The notes under the pieces: generated by a model | Database searches by the model: none | The model's input: only the letters and a program-made list of their open reading frames with translations | What the model was told of the DNA's origin: nothing | In this document: piece by piece, positions 8,188-19,477 of the stretch | Layout of the letters: every line of letters starts with the position of its first letter | Numbering within the stretch: the stretch's first letter is position 1 | Source of the DNA: Mesorhizobium sp. WSM4311 | GTDB lineage: Bacteria; Pseudomonadota; Alphaproteobacteria; Rhizobiales; Rhizobiaceae | Reading direction: 5' to 3' | Length of the DNA stretch: 64,000 nt | Assembly: GCF_002295115.1 (NCBI RefSeq) | Contig: NZ_NSFV01000004.1 | Coordinates: forward strand, 496,001 to 560,000 | Program-made: the position numbers and the translations under genes

Positions 8188-9543
8188 ATGAAGAAAATGC
8201 TTTTGCTGGGTGTTGCGTTTGGTGCGCTCGCCCTGAATACGCCCGCGCATGCCGAACTGAAGTTCAAGCCAGGCGAGGACAAGCGCTTCAACTGGGCAAA
8301 CTTTGAAGACCTCAAGAAGGTCGACCTCAAGGGCGAGACGCTGACCATCTTCGGGCCGTGGCGCGGCGAGGACGAGACGCTTGTCCGTTCGGTGCTCGAC
8401 TATTTCTCCGAGGCGACCGGCGCGGAGGTGAAATACTCCTCGTCCGAAAACTACGAGCAGCAGATCGTCATCGATACCCAGGCCGGCAGCCCGCCGAACA
8501 TCGCCGTCCTGCCGCAGCCGGGCCTGATCCAGGACCTCGCTTCCAAGGGCGTGCTGACCCCGCTGGGCGACGACGTCGCCGCCTGGATCAAGGAAAACTA
8601 CGCCGCCGGCGACTCCTGGGCCAAACTCGGCACCTATACCGGCAAGGACGGCAAGTCGGCCTTCTATGCCTTTCCCTACAAGATCGACGTGAAAGGGCTG
8701 GTCTGGTACTCGCCCGACAATTTCGAGGAAGCCGGCTACAAGGTGCCGAAGACGCAAGAGGAACTGGCCGAGCTCGAAAAGAAGATCATCGCCGATGGCG
8801 GCAAGCCCTGGTGCATCGGGCTTGGTTCCGGCGGTGCGACAGGATGGCCGGCGACCGACTGGGTCGAGGACATCATGCTCAGGACGCAGCCGCCGGAAGT
8901 CTACGACAAGTGGGTCAAGAACGAGATCCCGTTCACCGACCCGGCGGTGGTCAGCGCCATCGACATCTTCGGCAAGATCGCCACGGACGACAAGATGGTG
9001 GATGGCGGCGCCAAGGCAGTGGCGGCGACCGATTTCCGCGACAGCCCGAAGGGGCTCTTCACCGTGCCGCCGAAGTGCTACATGCACCATCAGGCATCGT
9101 TCATCCCGTCCTTCTTCCCGGAGGGCGTGAAGCTCGGCCAGGACGCAGACTTCTTCCCCTACCCGCCCTACGCCTCCAAGCCGGAACTCGGAACGCCGCT
9201 GGAGGTCGCCGGAACGCTGGTGATGATCACCAAGGATTCCAAGGCATCGCGCGAGTTCATCAAGTTCCTCGAAATGCCGCTCGCGCATGAATTGTGGATG
9301 GCACAGAAGAGCTTCGTCACCCCCTTCAAGAGCGCCAACAAGGATGCCTATGGCAGCGATGCGCTGAAGAAGCAGGGCGAGATCCTGGTCGGAGCGACGA
9401 CAGTCCGCTTCGACGGCTCCGACCTGATGCCCGGCAAGATCGGTGCCGGCTCATTCTGGACCGGCATGATCGATCTGGTCGGCGGCAAGTCCGCCCAGGA
9501 CGTGGCCGCCGACATCCAGAAGAGCTGGGACGCAATCAAGTAG
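8188..9543 (+). CDS. aglE: alpha-glucoside ABC transporter, periplasmic binding protein
   Basis: Extracellular solute-binding protein (family 1) of 451 residues that delivers alpha-glucosides such as sucrose, maltose or trehalose to AglFG. It has a signal peptide with cleavage after NTPAHA and the usual mixed alpha/beta binding-protein body. ATG 8188 is preceded by GGGAGGA at good spacing; the frame stays open upstream to 8050 but without supporting features. It is the first gene of aglEFGAK. A 177-base gap with a hairpin separates it from aglF, fitting the usual excess of binding protein over permease. Confidence 0.92.
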   Translation: MKKMLLLGVAFGALALNTPAHAELKFKPGEDKRFNWANFEDLKKVDLKGETLTIFGPWRGEDETLVRSVLDYFSEATGAEVKYSSSENYEQQIVIDTQAGSPPNIAVLPQPGLIQDLASKGVLTPLGDDVAAWIKENYAAGDSWAKLGTYTGKDGKSAFYAFPYKIDVKGLVWYSPDNFEEAGYKVPKTQEELAELEKKIIADGGKPWCIGLGSGGATGWPATDWVEDIMLRTQPPEVYDKWVKNEIPFTDPAVVSAIDIFGKIATDDKMVDGGAKAVAATDFRDSPKGLFTVPPKCYMHHQASFIPSFFPEGVKLGQDADFFPYPPYASKPELGTPLEVAGTLVMITKDSKASREFIKFLEMPLAHELWMAQKSFVTPFKSANKDAYGSDALKKQGEILVGATTVRFDGSDLMPGKIGAGSFWTGMIDLVGGKSAQDVAADIQKSWDAIK

Positions 9544-15580: not shown

Positions 15581-16088
15581 TTTTGGTACTCCAGTATTTT
15601 TTCCGTCCGTCTAGCGGCGTGTCTTGGGATTGAAATCGCGTCGTTCGGACAGGCCCGATGTGGGAAAGCCAGTTCGCCGTTTCCAATCACGAAGTTGTTC
15701 CGTGTGGACCAAGAATCCACCACTTGAAATTGTGCCAGGGCTTCCGAGCCATGCATTTTTCTTGTTGATATCAACCACTTAGTAAACGCCAGCCGCAAGG
15801 TCACAGACTGTATCGGAGGGCCATCGTTCACACCGTCCTGCACGCACCGTCAACAGAAACGAACCGTTCGGTTCGATTTTAGAGTCTGCTAATAGTCACT
15901 TTTCGAAACCGTTAACCTCTTTTGCCCCAGTTCCGGGTCGATTTTGACAGCCGGCACAGCTATCGGCGGAGGCGATTTTCGTGACCGCTGCCCGTGACCT
16001 AATCGTTGCGCATGCGTGTCGCGCCGCATGGATACGATGTCGCTTTCATGCCGATGTCGCAAACGCTGTCGTGATTAGATCATGTCAT
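15581..16088. other. gene-poor gap between the DUF680 cluster and the riboswitch
   Basis: About 500 bases with no gene I can support. It is visibly more AT-rich than the surroundings and should hold the minus-strand promoter for the DUF680 cluster and the plus-strand promoter for the riboswitch transcript. A symmetric site, CGAACCG-TT-CGGTTCG (15860-15875), looks like a TetR-type operator but has no cognate regulator next to it. Confidence 0.5.
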
Positions 16089-16262
16089 CTCAGGTGCCGC
16101 TTCGTGACGACGGGGCGGAGAATTGGGAAGCCGGTCAAAATCCGGCGCTGCCCCCGCAACGGTGGTGGAGTTCAAGTCGCAACGGGAGACCACTGGGCAA
16201 AAGCCTGGGAAGGTGTCGCGACCGTCCGCAAGGACACTCCAGAGCCCGGAAACCAGCCCGAG
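16089..16262 (+). promoter_or_regulatory. cobalamin (B12) riboswitch
   Basis: Conserved blocks appear in the right order: AGGTGCCGC at the 5' end, GGGAAGCCGGTCAAAATCCG followed by GCGCTGCCCCCGCAACGGT in the core, a variable arm, GCCTGGGAAGGTG, and the B12 box AGCCCGGAAACCAGCCCG at the 3' end. It lies about 128 bases before gbcA on the same strand. These elements normally switch the downstream gene off when adenosylcobalamin is bound. Control of a betaine demethylase rather than a cobalamin gene is unusual. Confidence 0.9.
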
Positions 16263-16389
16263 ATTTTTGAACTCGACTGATCGCGGTGGGCGGTCAAGAG
16301 GCGGATCGCGCGTGCCCGGCTTTCGCCGAGCTGCGTCTCATCCTTCCTCAATCACCACCAGTTCAGTCCTTGAAGTATGAGGACAGGAC

Positions 16390-17637
16390 ATGGATGCGCG
16401 CAACGATATGCTGAGGCTGTTGAATGGCCGCAGAGAGGGCTTCTCGCTCGAGCAGCCCTTCTATACCGATCCCGATTTCTTCAAGCTCGACATGGAGCTG
16501 ATCTGGTATCGCGACTGGCTGTTCGTCGGCCATGATTGCGAACTGCCCAAGCCCGGCAGCTTCATCACCGTACAGATCGGCGACTACCCTGTCGTGCTGG
16601 TGCGCGATCAGCAGGGCAAGATCAACGCCTTCCACAATTCCTGCCGCCACCGCGGCAGCCGCGTCTGCAACACCGACAAGGGCATGGCCGCCAAGCTGGT
16701 CTGCCCCTATCACCAATGGACCTATGAGTTGGACGGAAGGCTGCTGTTTGCCCGCCAGATGGCAGACGGCTTCGACAAAAGCCAGTTCGGCCTGAAGCCG
16801 GTCGCCTGCGAAAGCGTGGCCGGCTATATCTTCATCTGCCTGGCCAAGGAACCCGCCGACTTCGCGCCGATGCGGGCGATGATCGAACCCTATCTCAAGC
16901 CGCACCGGCTCAGCGAAGCAAAGATCGCCTTCGAGAGCACGATCGTCGAGAAGGGCAACTGGAAGCTCGTCTGGGAAAACAACCGCGAGTGCTATCATTG
17001 CGCCGGCAATCACCCGGAACTGTGCAAGACCTTCCCGGAAGCCCCGACGGTGACCGGTGTGCAAGGCGCCGACAGCGATCCGGAAATGCTGGCACACTGG
17101 GCCAAATGCGAGGCGGCCGGGCTGCCTAGCAAGTTCCGCATCGATCCGGCCGGGCAATACCGCGCCACCCGCGCGCCGCTGCTGCGCGATGCGGTCAGCT
17201 ACACGATGACGGGCAAGCGGGCGGTGAAGAAGAACCTGTCCGACAGCGTCTCGGCCGACCGCATCGGCTCCTTGCTGCTCTATCACTATCCGACGACGTG
17301 GAACCACATCCTCGGCGACCATGCCGTCACCTTCCGCGTGCTGCCGATCAGCGCCACGGAAACCGCGGTGACGACCAAATGGCTGGTGCACAAGGACGCA
17401 GTCGAGGGCGTCGACTACGATCTTGCCGAACTCACCCATGTCTGGACCGAGACCAACGACCAGGATCGCCGCATCGTCGAGGAAAACGCCTTCGGCATTC
17501 TGTCGCCGGCCTATGAGCCCGGCCCCTATTCGGAGCTGCACGAGGGCGGCGTGATCCAGTTTGTCGAATGGTACGCGTCCTTCATCGGCCCACGGCTTGC
17601 CGAAGACGGCCGGCCGGCTTTGCGCAGTGTCGCCTGA
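16390..17637 (+). CDS. gbcA: glycine betaine demethylase oxygenase subunit (Rieske type)
   Basis: Rieske non-heme iron oxygenase, 415 residues, predicted to remove one methyl group from glycine betaine to give dimethylglycine and formaldehyde. The Rieske cluster ligands are in CRHRGSRVC and CPYHQWTYELDG; the mononuclear iron site is in NRECYHCAGNHPELC with a later NDQDRRIVEENAFG. TTKWLVHKDAVEGVDYDLAE matches my memory of Pseudomonas GbcA. Stachydrine or another quaternary amine remains possible. It is followed by its reductase and preceded by a B12 riboswitch. Confidence 0.85.
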   Translation: MDARNDMLRLLNGRREGFSLEQPFYTDPDFFKLDMELIWYRDWLFVGHDCELPKPGSFITVQIGDYPVVLVRDQQGKINAFHNSCRHRGSRVCNTDKGMAAKLVCPYHQWTYELDGRLLFARQMADGFDKSQFGLKPVACESVAGYIFICLAKEPADFAPMRAMIEPYLKPHRLSEAKIAFESTIVEKGNWKLVWENNRECYHCAGNHPELCKTFPEAPTVTGVQGADSDPEMLAHWAKCEAAGLPSKFRIDPAGQYRATRAPLLRDAVSYTMTGKRAVKKNLSDSVSADRIGSLLLYHYPTTWNHILGDHAVTFRVLPISATETAVTTKWLVHKDAVEGVDYDLAELTHVWTETNDQDRRIVEENAFGILSPAYEPGPYSELHEGGVIQFVEWYASFIGPRLAEDGRPALRSVA

Positions 17638-17648
17638 GAGGTCTGGGG

Positions 17649-18752
17649 ATGAACGCGATGACGGATCTTGGCCTCTATCGCCATCTCGATCAGATGGCGC
17701 CCTGGAACGACAGGCTGCAGGTGCTGGAAGTGATCGGCGTCAGCGACGAGGCGCCTGACGTCAAGACCTTCACCTTCCGCTCCGACAACCAGACCTGGTT
17801 CCGCTACAAGCCGGGCCAGTTCGTGACGCTGGAACTGCCGACGTCGGACGGACCGCTGATGCGCACCTATACGCTGTCGTCGTCGCCGTCACGGCCGTTC
17901 TCGATCGCGGTGACGGTGAAGGCGCAGGCCGGCAGCATCGGCACACGCTGGATGTTCGAACACCTGGTGCCCGGTTCGCACGTCAAGGCTTATGGGCCGA
18001 GCGGCGACTTTTCGCTGCACAGCCACCCGGCGGCCAAATATCTGTTCATCTCGGCCGGTTCCGGCGTGACGCCGATGATGTCGATGCTGCGCTGGCTGAA
18101 CGATTGCGCGCCATGGACCGATGTCGGCTTCGTCAACTGCGCGCGGCGCGCCGAAGAGATCATCTTCCGCAAGGAACTCGAACTGCTCGGCGGCCATATG
18201 CCGGGCCTGTCGCTCGGCTTCATGATCGAGGAGCGGTCGAGCCGCGAGGGCTGGTATGGCCATATGGGCCGCATCGACGCGATCCGGCTGCCGCTGCTGG
18301 CGCCCGATTTCCGCGAACGCGAGATCTTCTGCTGCGGTCCGGATCCTTTCATGCGCGCCGTGCGCGGCATGCTTGAAGCCGCCGGCTTCGACATGACGAA
18401 ATACCACCAGGAGAGCTTTGCCGCCCCCGCGGTTGAGGAAGTCCCGGCGCCGTTCGCATCGCCTGGGGAAGACGTTGCCGTTCCTATCGAGGCAACACCG
18501 ATCCGCTTCGCGCTTTCGGATGTCGATGCCGAGTGCATCGCCGGCCAGACCGTGCTGCAGACGGCGCGTTCCTCGGGTGTGCGGATCCCCGCGGCCTGCG
18601 AATTCGGCCTGTGCGGAACCTGCAAGGTGAAGAAAGTCTCCGGCGCCGTCGAGATGAGCCACAATGGCGGCATCCTCGATCACGAGATAGATGACGGCTT
18701 CATCCTCGCTTGCTGCTCGAAGCCGCTTTCGGCTCTCGAAATAGAGGCGTGA
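17649..18752 (+). CDS. gbcB: glycine betaine demethylase reductase subunit
   Basis: Supplies electrons from NAD(P)H to GbcA. The 367 residues comprise an FAD-binding domain (MRTYTLSSSPS), an NAD-binding domain (LFISAGSGVTPMMSML, EIFCCGPDPFMRAV) and a C-terminal plant-type 2Fe-2S ferredoxin whose ligands are seen in ACEFGLCGTCK and the final ILACCSKP. ATG 17649 has GTCTGGGG upstream, 11 bases after the gbcA stop. The frame is open further upstream inside gbcA but that part is not homologous to the family. Confidence 0.9.
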   Translation: MNAMTDLGLYRHLDQMAPWNDRLQVLEVIGVSDEAPDVKTFTFRSDNQTWFRYKPGQFVTLELPTSDGPLMRTYTLSSSPSRPFSIAVTVKAQAGSIGTRWMFEHLVPGSHVKAYGPSGDFSLHSHPAAKYLFISAGSGVTPMMSMLRWLNDCAPWTDVGFVNCARRAEEIIFRKELELLGGHMPGLSLGFMIEERSSREGWYGHMGRIDAIRLPLLAPDFREREIFCCGPDPFMRAVRGMLEAAGFDMTKYHQESFAAPAVEEVPAPFASPGEDVAVPIEATPIRFALSDVDAECIAGQTVLQTARSSGVRIPAACEFGLCGTCKVKKVSGAVEMSHNGGILDHEIDDGFILACCSKPLSALEIEA

Positions 18753-18847
18753 CAGCGTCGGGCGGCCCCGGCGCGGCAGCCTTGCCAAGCAGTTGCGGCT
18801 GTTTCCAGGACCCTGGCGACCTCGGTAGGGCGCGCGTCAGGATCGGC

Positions 18848-19477
18848 TTATAAGGCGTTCTCGTTCGGCTTCGTCACCCGCCGCAGCGTCAGATTGATCC
18901 TGCCGCCGTTCTTGAGCAGCGCCGAGGTCGAGGGATAGATGCGGTCGACGCCGTGGAAGGCGAGACGGCCCTCGCCGCCGAGCACGACGACGTCGCCGCT
19001 CTTCAGCCTGAACGATTTGGTGGCGCCGTCGCGCGTCGTCTGGCCGACCCTGAACAGGCAATCGTCGCCCAGCGAGACAGAGACGACAGGCGCCGAGAAA
19101 TCGGCCTCGTCGCGGTCCTGGTGCAGGCCCATCTTCGCGTCGGCCGTGTAGAAATTGATAAGACAGGCCTCCGGCGGATTCGGATAGCTCGACACCTGCC
19201 GCCAAAGATCGAGCAGGCCCTCTGGGATCGGCGGCCATGGCTCTCCTGTCAGCGGATGCGTCGGCTGGTAGCGATAGCCGCGCTCCTTGTCGGTGACCCA
19301 GCCGAGCAGGCCGCAATTGGTCATGCGCACGCTCATCTCCTTGCCGGTGCGCGGCATGGCAGGGACGAACAGCGGGGCCTGCTGGACGATGCCTCTCACC
19401 TCTTCGACCAGCGCCTCCTGAACAGCGCGGGAGAGATGGGCCGGCATGTGACGGACGCCTTTGGGCAAAACGAGCAT
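18848..19477 (-). CDS. alkB: AlkB-like 2-oxoglutarate/Fe(II) dioxygenase
   Basis: DNA/RNA alkylation repair enzyme that oxidatively removes methyl groups. Motifs: the iron-binding LHQDRDEADF, the distal His in LAFHGVDRIYP, and the 2-oxoglutarate-binding RINLTLRR near the C-terminus. NFYTADAKMG precedes the HxD as in E. coli AlkB. The chosen ATG gives 209 residues, close to family size; the frame stays open to a TTG at 19540. Convergent with gbcB. Confidence 0.88.
   Translation of the reverse strand: MLVLPKGVRHMPAHLSRAVQEALVEEVRGIVQQAPLFVPAMPRTGKEMSVRMTNCGLLGWVTDKERGYRYQPTHPLTGEPWPPIPEGLLDLWRQVSSYPNPPEACLINFYTADAKMGLHQDRDEADFSAPVVSVSLGDDCLFRVGQTTRDGATKSFRLKSGDVVVLGGEGRLAFHGVDRIYPSTSALLKNGGRINLTLRRVTKPNENAL

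Follow-up and report, generated by a model that had tools for sequence, protein, structure and literature searches.

A full-length cobalamin riboswitch stands in front of a gbcA-gbcB-like gene pair in Mesorhizobium sp. WSM4311 (contig NZ_NSFV01000004.1, positions 496,001 to 560,000 of the forward strand). This whole stretch of 64,000 nucleotides is called the window here, and coordinates count from its first letter. The aptamer occupies 16075–16275 (+) and matches the Rfam model RF00174 (Cobalamin) with 102.5 bits against a gathering threshold of 31.5 (E 1.6e-24; cmscan of the 64 kb window). It covers the model end to end (1–189 of 189) and is the sole RNA match above gathering in the window. 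On the same strand, 114 nucleotides (nt) separate the Rfam aptamer end from the ATG of the gbcA-like oxygenase gene (16390–17637, +, 415 amino acids). The gbcB-like reductase gene (17649–18752, +, 367 amino acids) starts 11 nt 3' of it. A first-pass annotation of the sequence had placed a full B12 riboswitch before gbcA-gbcB, which the covariance search confirms. It was right that the element is present, but its start of 16089 lies 14 nt inside the aptamer, which begins at 16075 by Rfam, and its gap of 128 bases to the genes is corrected to the 114 nt above.

In the comparison of gbcA leaders suggested with that annotation, the riboswitch proved to recur. The comparison used the best 80 of 593 gbcA loci, all from named genomes (the named set). 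R1, a covariance model trained on the window's leader together with 23 of the positive loci, matches directly 5' of gbcA in 57 of the 80 and in none of the remaining 23. RF00174 matched 10 of 10 riboswitch-bearing gbcA loci of one scanned batch, and the calls of R1 and Rfam agree in the 33 named loci scanned with both. These models superseded a simple B12-box pattern search, which failed to detect the L070 box or anything of L111. The conserved core (GCCGGU, CUGCCCCCGCAACGG, CCACUG, GGGAAGG and the B12 box) forms invariant columns in 24 aligned leaders, which were picked by pattern for having two of the core motifs; it is lost in three leaders of one clade. Because it recurs in 57 of 80 related loci and is matched by Rfam in 10 of 10, the riboswitch is not a chance resemblance. 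Its reality in front of the gbcAB-like pair is solid, and as a riboswitch it is ordinary. The aptamer has the full RF00174 architecture and is probably of the adenosylcobalamin class.

The oxygenase carries the Pfam domains Rieske and Ring_hydroxyl_A, and the reductase Fer2, NAD_binding_1 and FAD_binding_6. Their best NCBIfam families are GbcA (NF058607, 526.9 bits) and GbcB (NF058606, 349 bits), so that the names gbcA and gbcB given by the first-pass annotation stand as best family matches, although both proteins miss the curated equivalog cut-offs (670 and 500). The substrate named there, glycine betaine, is less certain than was stated, as the GbcA cut-off is missed and the nearest characterised relative is Stc2. 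Identity is 57–58.5% to Stc2 (PDB 3vca) and to PDB 3n0q, against 45–50% to ten GbcA proteins over the cut-off, while the nearest named gbcA relatives, from Mesorhizobium, are 96% identical. Sections of PMC7948474 and PMC10952381 give the group Vb signature as Cys-X-X-Cys beside the iron site and Asn for the aromatic Tyr203 of CntA. The window protein has WENNRECYHC, as does Stc2, and the ten GbcA proteins have ENNRECYHC, in keeping with group Vb membership. In trees it falls outside the Stc2 clade, in a sister clade of its own. By these residues the gbcA-like protein is a group Vb Rieske quaternary-amine N-demethylase, for which glycine betaine, proline betaine and others are candidate substrates.

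A gbcB relative lies in the same 13 kb locus in 65 of the 80 named loci (tblastn, 1e-20). The 15 loci without one (L077, L078, L080, L087, L088, L090, L091, L094, L098, L099, L100, L102, L104, L106 and L109) are all Rhizobium-type and riboswitch-free, and their partner reductase must presumably be encoded elsewhere. In one Labrys genome (L069) the riboswitch is followed by gbcA-gbcB-fdhA, the last a glutathione-independent formaldehyde dehydrogenase gene (714.5 bits, cut-off 637), which fits the release of formaldehyde. No second case was recognised among the genes directly 3' of gbcB in the other loci. The same Labrys locus holds a second B12 riboswitch (L069:5296–5493, −), divergent from that of gbcA and facing a BtuB-like receptor gene. 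In L108 a second RF00174 match (8760–8968, −) lies between gbcB and metH, followed by a small open reading frame of no recognised family.

The genome of the window contains presumed cobalamin-dependent counterparts to such an enzyme. Six MTTB-family genes were found, falling into at least three score classes. One of them (in L026) adjoins two genes of the opposite strand, one encoding a B12-binding protein and the other a DUF1638 protein. The best NCBIfam family of the B12-binding protein is MtgC_2 (210 bits, under the cut-off of 370). A betaine-homocysteine methyltransferase-type gene (Bmt/MtgE; 568 bits, cut-off 338) lies 5 kb from this MTTB gene, whose protein matches PDB 4yyc at 972 bits and PDB 9yce, named glycine betaine methyltransferase, at 424 bits. 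The genome thus holds six MTTB, an mtgC-like and an mtgE-like gene. The TGTCGY repeat found 5' of gbcA (described below) was considered as the mark of a regulator shared with the MTTB genes and rejected, as no copy occurs in 12 other stretches of this genome holding the six genes. Parts of PMC12478193 describe genetics and proteomics that support demethylation of glycine betaine by the cobalamin-dependent MtgBCD in Ruegeria, and propose from proteomics and mutants an MtgBCDE set for betaine demethylation and methionine synthesis.

Neither the MetH reactivation domain PF02965 nor the MetE N-terminal domain PF08267 was found in the window's genome (stated completeness 100), and PF02574 occurs in two genes only, with open frames of 427 and 346 amino acids. 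MetH is present in 47 of the 49 other genomes searched. Methionine synthesis in the window's genome may therefore rest on a split MtgC/MtgE-type system. These data bear on the mechanism offered by the first-pass annotation, in which scarce B12 makes MetH limiting and betaine methyl groups are diverted to one-carbon metabolism. Oxidative demethylation does yield one-carbon units, and the formaldehyde dehydrogenase gene 3' of gbcAB in one genome agrees with such a use. However, the genome in question is one without a detected MetH domain, and MetH does not predict the switch: it occurs in 23 of 26 genomes with an intact switch (the window's genome, G000, being one of the 26) and in 24 of 24 others (including G049, with a degenerate switch), 47 of 50 overall. 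The MetH mechanism is hence given only a very slim chance. MetH was rejected as the partner trait of the switch, as was MetE, whose domain occurs in 10 of the 50 genomes (7 of 26 with an intact switch, 3 of 24 others) and likewise does not track it.

The cobalamin-dependent MTTB family, unlike MetH, does separate genomes with and without the switch. From the named set, the genomes of 50 loci (24 without a match in the pattern search and 26 others) were chosen for an MTTB search, which covered 49 of them, all but that of L074, and the 30 named loci outside this search are all riboswitch-positive. MTTB occurs in 25 of 26 riboswitch-positive genomes against 1 of 23 riboswitch-free ones, the exceptions being L111, which lacks MTTB and has a weak riboswitch (57.9 bits), and L103, which has MTTB and lacks the riboswitch. 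A survey with the query P0001 covered 289 genomes of the class, of which 17 match; because of this low yield, a family-level sample of 161 genomes, 79 of them matching at 1e-100, was added. The window's own genome is in both samples. Of the 94 other matching genomes, 80 had the 600-nt leader of their best copy scanned and were themselves searched for MTTB; the 14 left out carry copies of 43–48% identity. Three of the 49 named genomes recur in the survey (L064, L067, L091). MTTB was found in 46 of 48 riboswitch-positive and 9 of 32 riboswitch-negative survey genomes (Fisher p 8.8e-11). Where gbcA identity is at least 65% the counts are 42 of 44 and 2 of 20 (p 9e-12), and after reduction to a single entry for each genus and state they are 30 of 31 and 1 of 12 (p 2e-8).

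The association was also placed on a 94-row gbcA tree with several long branches, which combines the window with 33 of the 49 named genes and 60 of the 80 from the survey. On this tree the riboswitch changes 13 times and MTTB 12 times, giving eight independent supported pairs. About six of these go the same way, none the opposite way and about two show no difference. The median p is 0.031 whichever trait is taken first (range 0.016–0.125), and counting the three degenerate riboswitches described below as absent gives medians of 0.016 and 0.031. In both the survey and the tree the switch therefore tracks the B12-dependent counterpart, although in the survey this is not significant below 65% identity. 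The link to MTTB could instead be a by-product of lineage: a few clades would have shed both features at once for some unrelated cause, and the switch would serve some other end. The traits are indeed clustered on the tree, and an 81-row tree of the named set alone has three supported contrasts. Against this stand the agreement of about six of eight contrasts in the larger tree with none opposed, the degenerate switches of an MTTB-lacking clade, and the joint presence of switch and MTTB in distant Rieske clades. A lineage by-product is accordingly considered quite improbable.

G491, G422 and L111 form one clade of riboswitch-positive, MTTB-negative genomes with low Rfam scores (56.3, 61.3 and 57.9 bits), whereas the nine other gbcA leaders of the Rfam batch containing L111 score 79–110 bits. 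Their leaders (L148 of G491, L149 of G422, and L111) have no CCACUG, GGGAAGG or intact L5 motif, and the B12 box is altered. These degenerate aptamers are interpreted as having decayed, in a single event, once the corrinoid route was lost. Among the nine riboswitch-negative survey genomes with MTTB, four (G418, G425, G140, G082) carry a Stc2-clade gene instead of an orthologue, and in three more (G279, G198, G094) the gbcA relative belongs to a still more distant clade.

Rieske demethylases outside the window's clade are also found under a riboswitch, together with MTTB. In other families, G304, G228 and G263 have GbcA-side genes preceded by Rfam riboswitches of 96–109 bits, along with 3–7 MTTB genes. 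G598 has a gene of the Stc2/3n0q clade, an R1 match of 118 bits (by model R1 only) and two MTTB genes. Conversely, the ten genomes with GbcA over the cut-off have no riboswitch (0 of 10, 1.5 kb flank) and MTTB in 1 of 10. For 16 newly compared genomes among 19 scanned loci, MTTB is present in 4 of 4 with the riboswitch and 1 of 12 without. Genomes of the family or genus without such a gbcA carry MTTB in 18 of 20 searched, 18 of these 20 being drawn from the listed survey genomes (two small listed ones left out, 62 more unlisted) and two from the search behind the 19 scanned loci. Genomes thus seem usually to have the corrinoid route by itself, the Rieske route by itself and no switch, or the two routes together with the switch.

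This distribution also bears on a possible role in cobalamin production. The search of the window's genome gave five RF00174 riboswitches, that of gbcAB among them. The other four stand before cobW-cobN and a btuFCD-like operon (both identified by eye), cbtA with cobU- and cobO-like genes (cbtA by Pfam, the rest by eye), and bluB (259.9 bits). Next to the riboswitch of the cbtA operon, and divergent from it on the opposite strand, is a second Rieske oxygenase gene (L014:4242–5417, −), which scores 163 bits to GbcA. As these four switches precede synthesis or transport genes, gbcAB might belong to the B12-synthesis regulon, with betaine supplying glycine, methyl groups or precursors of aminolevulinic acid for cobalamin; sections of PMC8123684 report that betaine feeding stimulates B12 production. 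This idea does not, however, predict that the switch should vanish or decay where MTTB is missing. The Rhizobium and Agrobacterium lineages, which lack MTTB, presumably still make B12. Membership of gbcAB in the synthesis regulon is regarded as improbable.

The RNA downstream of the aptamer suggests how expression of the pair may be controlled. Directly 3' of it, a hairpin (TGATCGC-GGTGG-GCGGTCA, 16278–16296, +) keeps its seven pairs in 27 of 27 leaders; six are invariant and one varies on one side. Its loop side, GCGGTGGGC, is complementary to the aptamer sequence GCCCCCGC save for one bulged base. This pairing is presumably the L5–L13 kissing loop, with the L5 pairing itself deduced from sequence, and the hairpin is probably P13. 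Further 3', the minimum free energy fold predicts a sequestering hairpin (16358–16393, +) in which the Shine-Dalgarno sequence GAGGAC (16379–16384) and the AUG (16390–16392) pair with CCAGTTCAGTCCTT. Folded alone it has a minimum free energy of −14.6 kcal/mol (z −1.27; 28 of 200 shuffled sequences give an equal or better fold), and 96.3% of cells are paired over the 27 leaders, with no compensatory change. P13 and the sequestering hairpin jointly, as the OFF structure, have 97.6% of cells paired in the 27 chosen leaders against 34–47% for slid versions, a comparison biased in their favour because the OFF structure was derived from the same sequences. A competing helix (GACUGA..GGUGG/CCACC..UCAGUC), with about 97% of cells paired in 27 leaders and likewise no compensatory change, is put forward as a guess. 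Compensatory change is lacking in both structures because the leader sequences hardly vary. No transcription terminator was found on the + strand in 15800–18900 (there is one on the − strand), and translational control through sequestration of the Shine-Dalgarno sequence is therefore the likelier mode.

No sigma-70 consensus promoter was found. On the 5' side of the aptamer lies a direct repeat, TGTCGC-N15-TGTCGC (16017–16043, +), with 21 bp from start to start. The general form TGTCGY-N14-16-TGTCGY occurs within 520 nt 5' of gbcA in 69 of the 80 named loci, and does so independently of the riboswitch (47 of 57 loci with it, 22 of 23 without). It is strongly enriched there, as the flanks of the same 80 loci contain nine copies in 1.96 million strand-nt. 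Of six riboswitch-free loci inspected, five have it closer to gbcA. The repeat is likely a transcription-factor site at the promoter, and its 21-bp period would suit an activator, perhaps of the AraC type, that contacts the DNA at points two helical turns from each other. If the repeat does bind an activator, gbcAB would require its own promoter signal as well as low B12.

Starting from what was computed directly, namely the riboswitch, the gene pair, the presence of the B12-dependent MTTB family and its joint distribution with the switch, the best explanation is that gbcAB is a B12-independent, O2-dependent substitute for cobalamin-dependent betaine demethylation, induced at low B12, to which a probability of roughly 0.72 is given. 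The first-pass annotation had rightly listed B12-independent substitutes among the usual targets of B12 riboswitches. When B12 is plentiful the riboswitch would repress translation of gbcAB; as B12 falls, the leader would let ribosomes bind, and the cell would produce the Rieske demethylase, which depends on O2 and NAD(P)H. It would demethylate a betaine without a corrinoid, releasing formaldehyde, with glycine betaine the most likely substrate and proline betaine a possible one. It would thereby take over from an MTTB/MtgB methyltransferase and an MtgC corrinoid protein that stall without B12, carrying the logic of metE for metH into betaine catabolism. The explanation supposes B12 as the ligand, an OFF switch, Shine-Dalgarno sequestration, a substrate shared by the two routes and a physiological benefit. 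The co-distribution with a corrinoid-dependent family supplies a testable reason for a switch on gbcA.

Alternatively, the substrate may be proline betaine or a different quaternary amine, and the enzyme may replace another MTTB member (such as an MtpB-like one), a reading that overlaps with the preferred one. It draws on the 57% identity to Stc2 as the nearest characterised enzyme, on the missed GbcA cut-off, and on the spread of the six own-genome MTTB genes over at least three score classes. In every switch-bearing genome with MTTB, however, across the named set and the survey, the best MTTB has a score of 761 bits or more. In the window's genome, the gene of this class reaches 424 bits to the glycine betaine methyltransferase structure, against 309 for the 666-bit gene compared with it. 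This alternative is held to be rather unlikely.

Several observations weigh against the substitution of gbcAB for a corrinoid route. The covariation score of the OFF structure (0.044) is under that of shuffles (0.056) over 27 leaders, and neither expression-platform helix has compensatory changes. G394 has MTTB and yet a weak aptamer of 68.8 bits, so that weak aptamers are not confined to MTTB-negative genomes. True exceptions within the window's clade are L103 and two genomes of a single genus, G496 and G429, all three with MTTB and no riboswitch. Below 65% gbcA identity, survey counts of 4 of 4 and 7 of 12 MTTB-positive genomes do not differ significantly. Survey genomes are at least 90 or 95% complete, whereas completeness is not stated for the named genomes, making an absence of MTTB weaker evidence there. 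The 94-gene tree yields just eight supported contrasts, and the tree restricted to the named set, with 81 rows and both traits for 50 of them, gives three pairs and a median p of 0.5. As 15 of the 23 riboswitch-negative named loci are without gbcB, their gbcA relatives may be functionally different genes. MTTB is moreover a broad family, and a substrate shared with gbcAB is assumed. A part of PMC12366255 reports cobalamin-independent synthesis of methionine from betaine by the Phaeobacter Bmt in vitro; should this apply here too, gbcAB and Bmt would be in competition when B12 is short.

A more specific form of the substitution is tentatively proposed, at somewhat less than even odds, in which the switch acts as a corrinoid-sparing valve. 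In the window's genome, where no MetH or MetE domain was found, MtgC would serve both methionine synthesis and betaine demethylation, and low B12 would move demethylation to the O2-dependent route, sparing the remaining MtgC-bound cobalamin for methionine. A cell would keep the gbcA switch only while it owns the corrinoid route and lose it afterwards, and different Rieske clades would have been recruited in this way.

If the substitution holds, a catabolic, O2-dependent betaine demethylase joins the B12-independent stand-ins under B12 riboswitches, and betaine turnover in soil and symbiotic bacteria is tied to vitamin supply. It would also bear on the cobalamin-dependent MtgBCD that links betaine demethylation to methionine in aerobes, since both routes and the switch seem to be held together. 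The presence or decay of the riboswitch would be a cheap genomic marker of the route on which a cell depends. No report of a cobalamin riboswitch on gbcA or any Rieske demethylase was recognised in open-licence full text, with regulon databases, subscription papers and supplements outside the search.

Each known system resembles the locus in part. GbcAB of Pseudomonas and Chromohalobacter shares the two-component architecture and the group Vb signature residues; the window protein, by contrast, is 45–50% identical and under the cut-off, and none of ten GbcA genes has the riboswitch within the 1.5 kb flank. Stc2 (PDB 3vca) and PDB 3n0q are the closest solved relatives, with the same ENNRECYHC motif and the conserved Trp353, whereas the window protein belongs to the sister clade and has Thr in place of Ala223. 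MtgBCD(E) of Ruegeria, as presented in parts of PMC12478193, is paralleled in the window's genome by neighbouring genes for MTTB, a B12-binding protein, DUF1638 and a Bmt/MtgE-type protein; it is the presumed partner route replaced by gbcAB and not the same thing. The closest precedent in regulation is RF00174 on isozymes of B12-dependent enzymes such as metE, with the same aptamer family, leader position and proposed logic. Another B12-free isozyme under a cobalamin riboswitch is nrdAB. PMC3766115 names 'isozymes of B12-dependent enzymes' as a category of cobalamin-riboswitch targets, and its main text, the part searched apart from the supplements, has no mention of betaine. As far as the open-licence literature shows, the locus is a new target within a known switch class and a known regulatory logic and not a new kind of system; in distinction to the metE-type targets, it is a catabolic Rieske demethylase that would replace a methyltransferase system.

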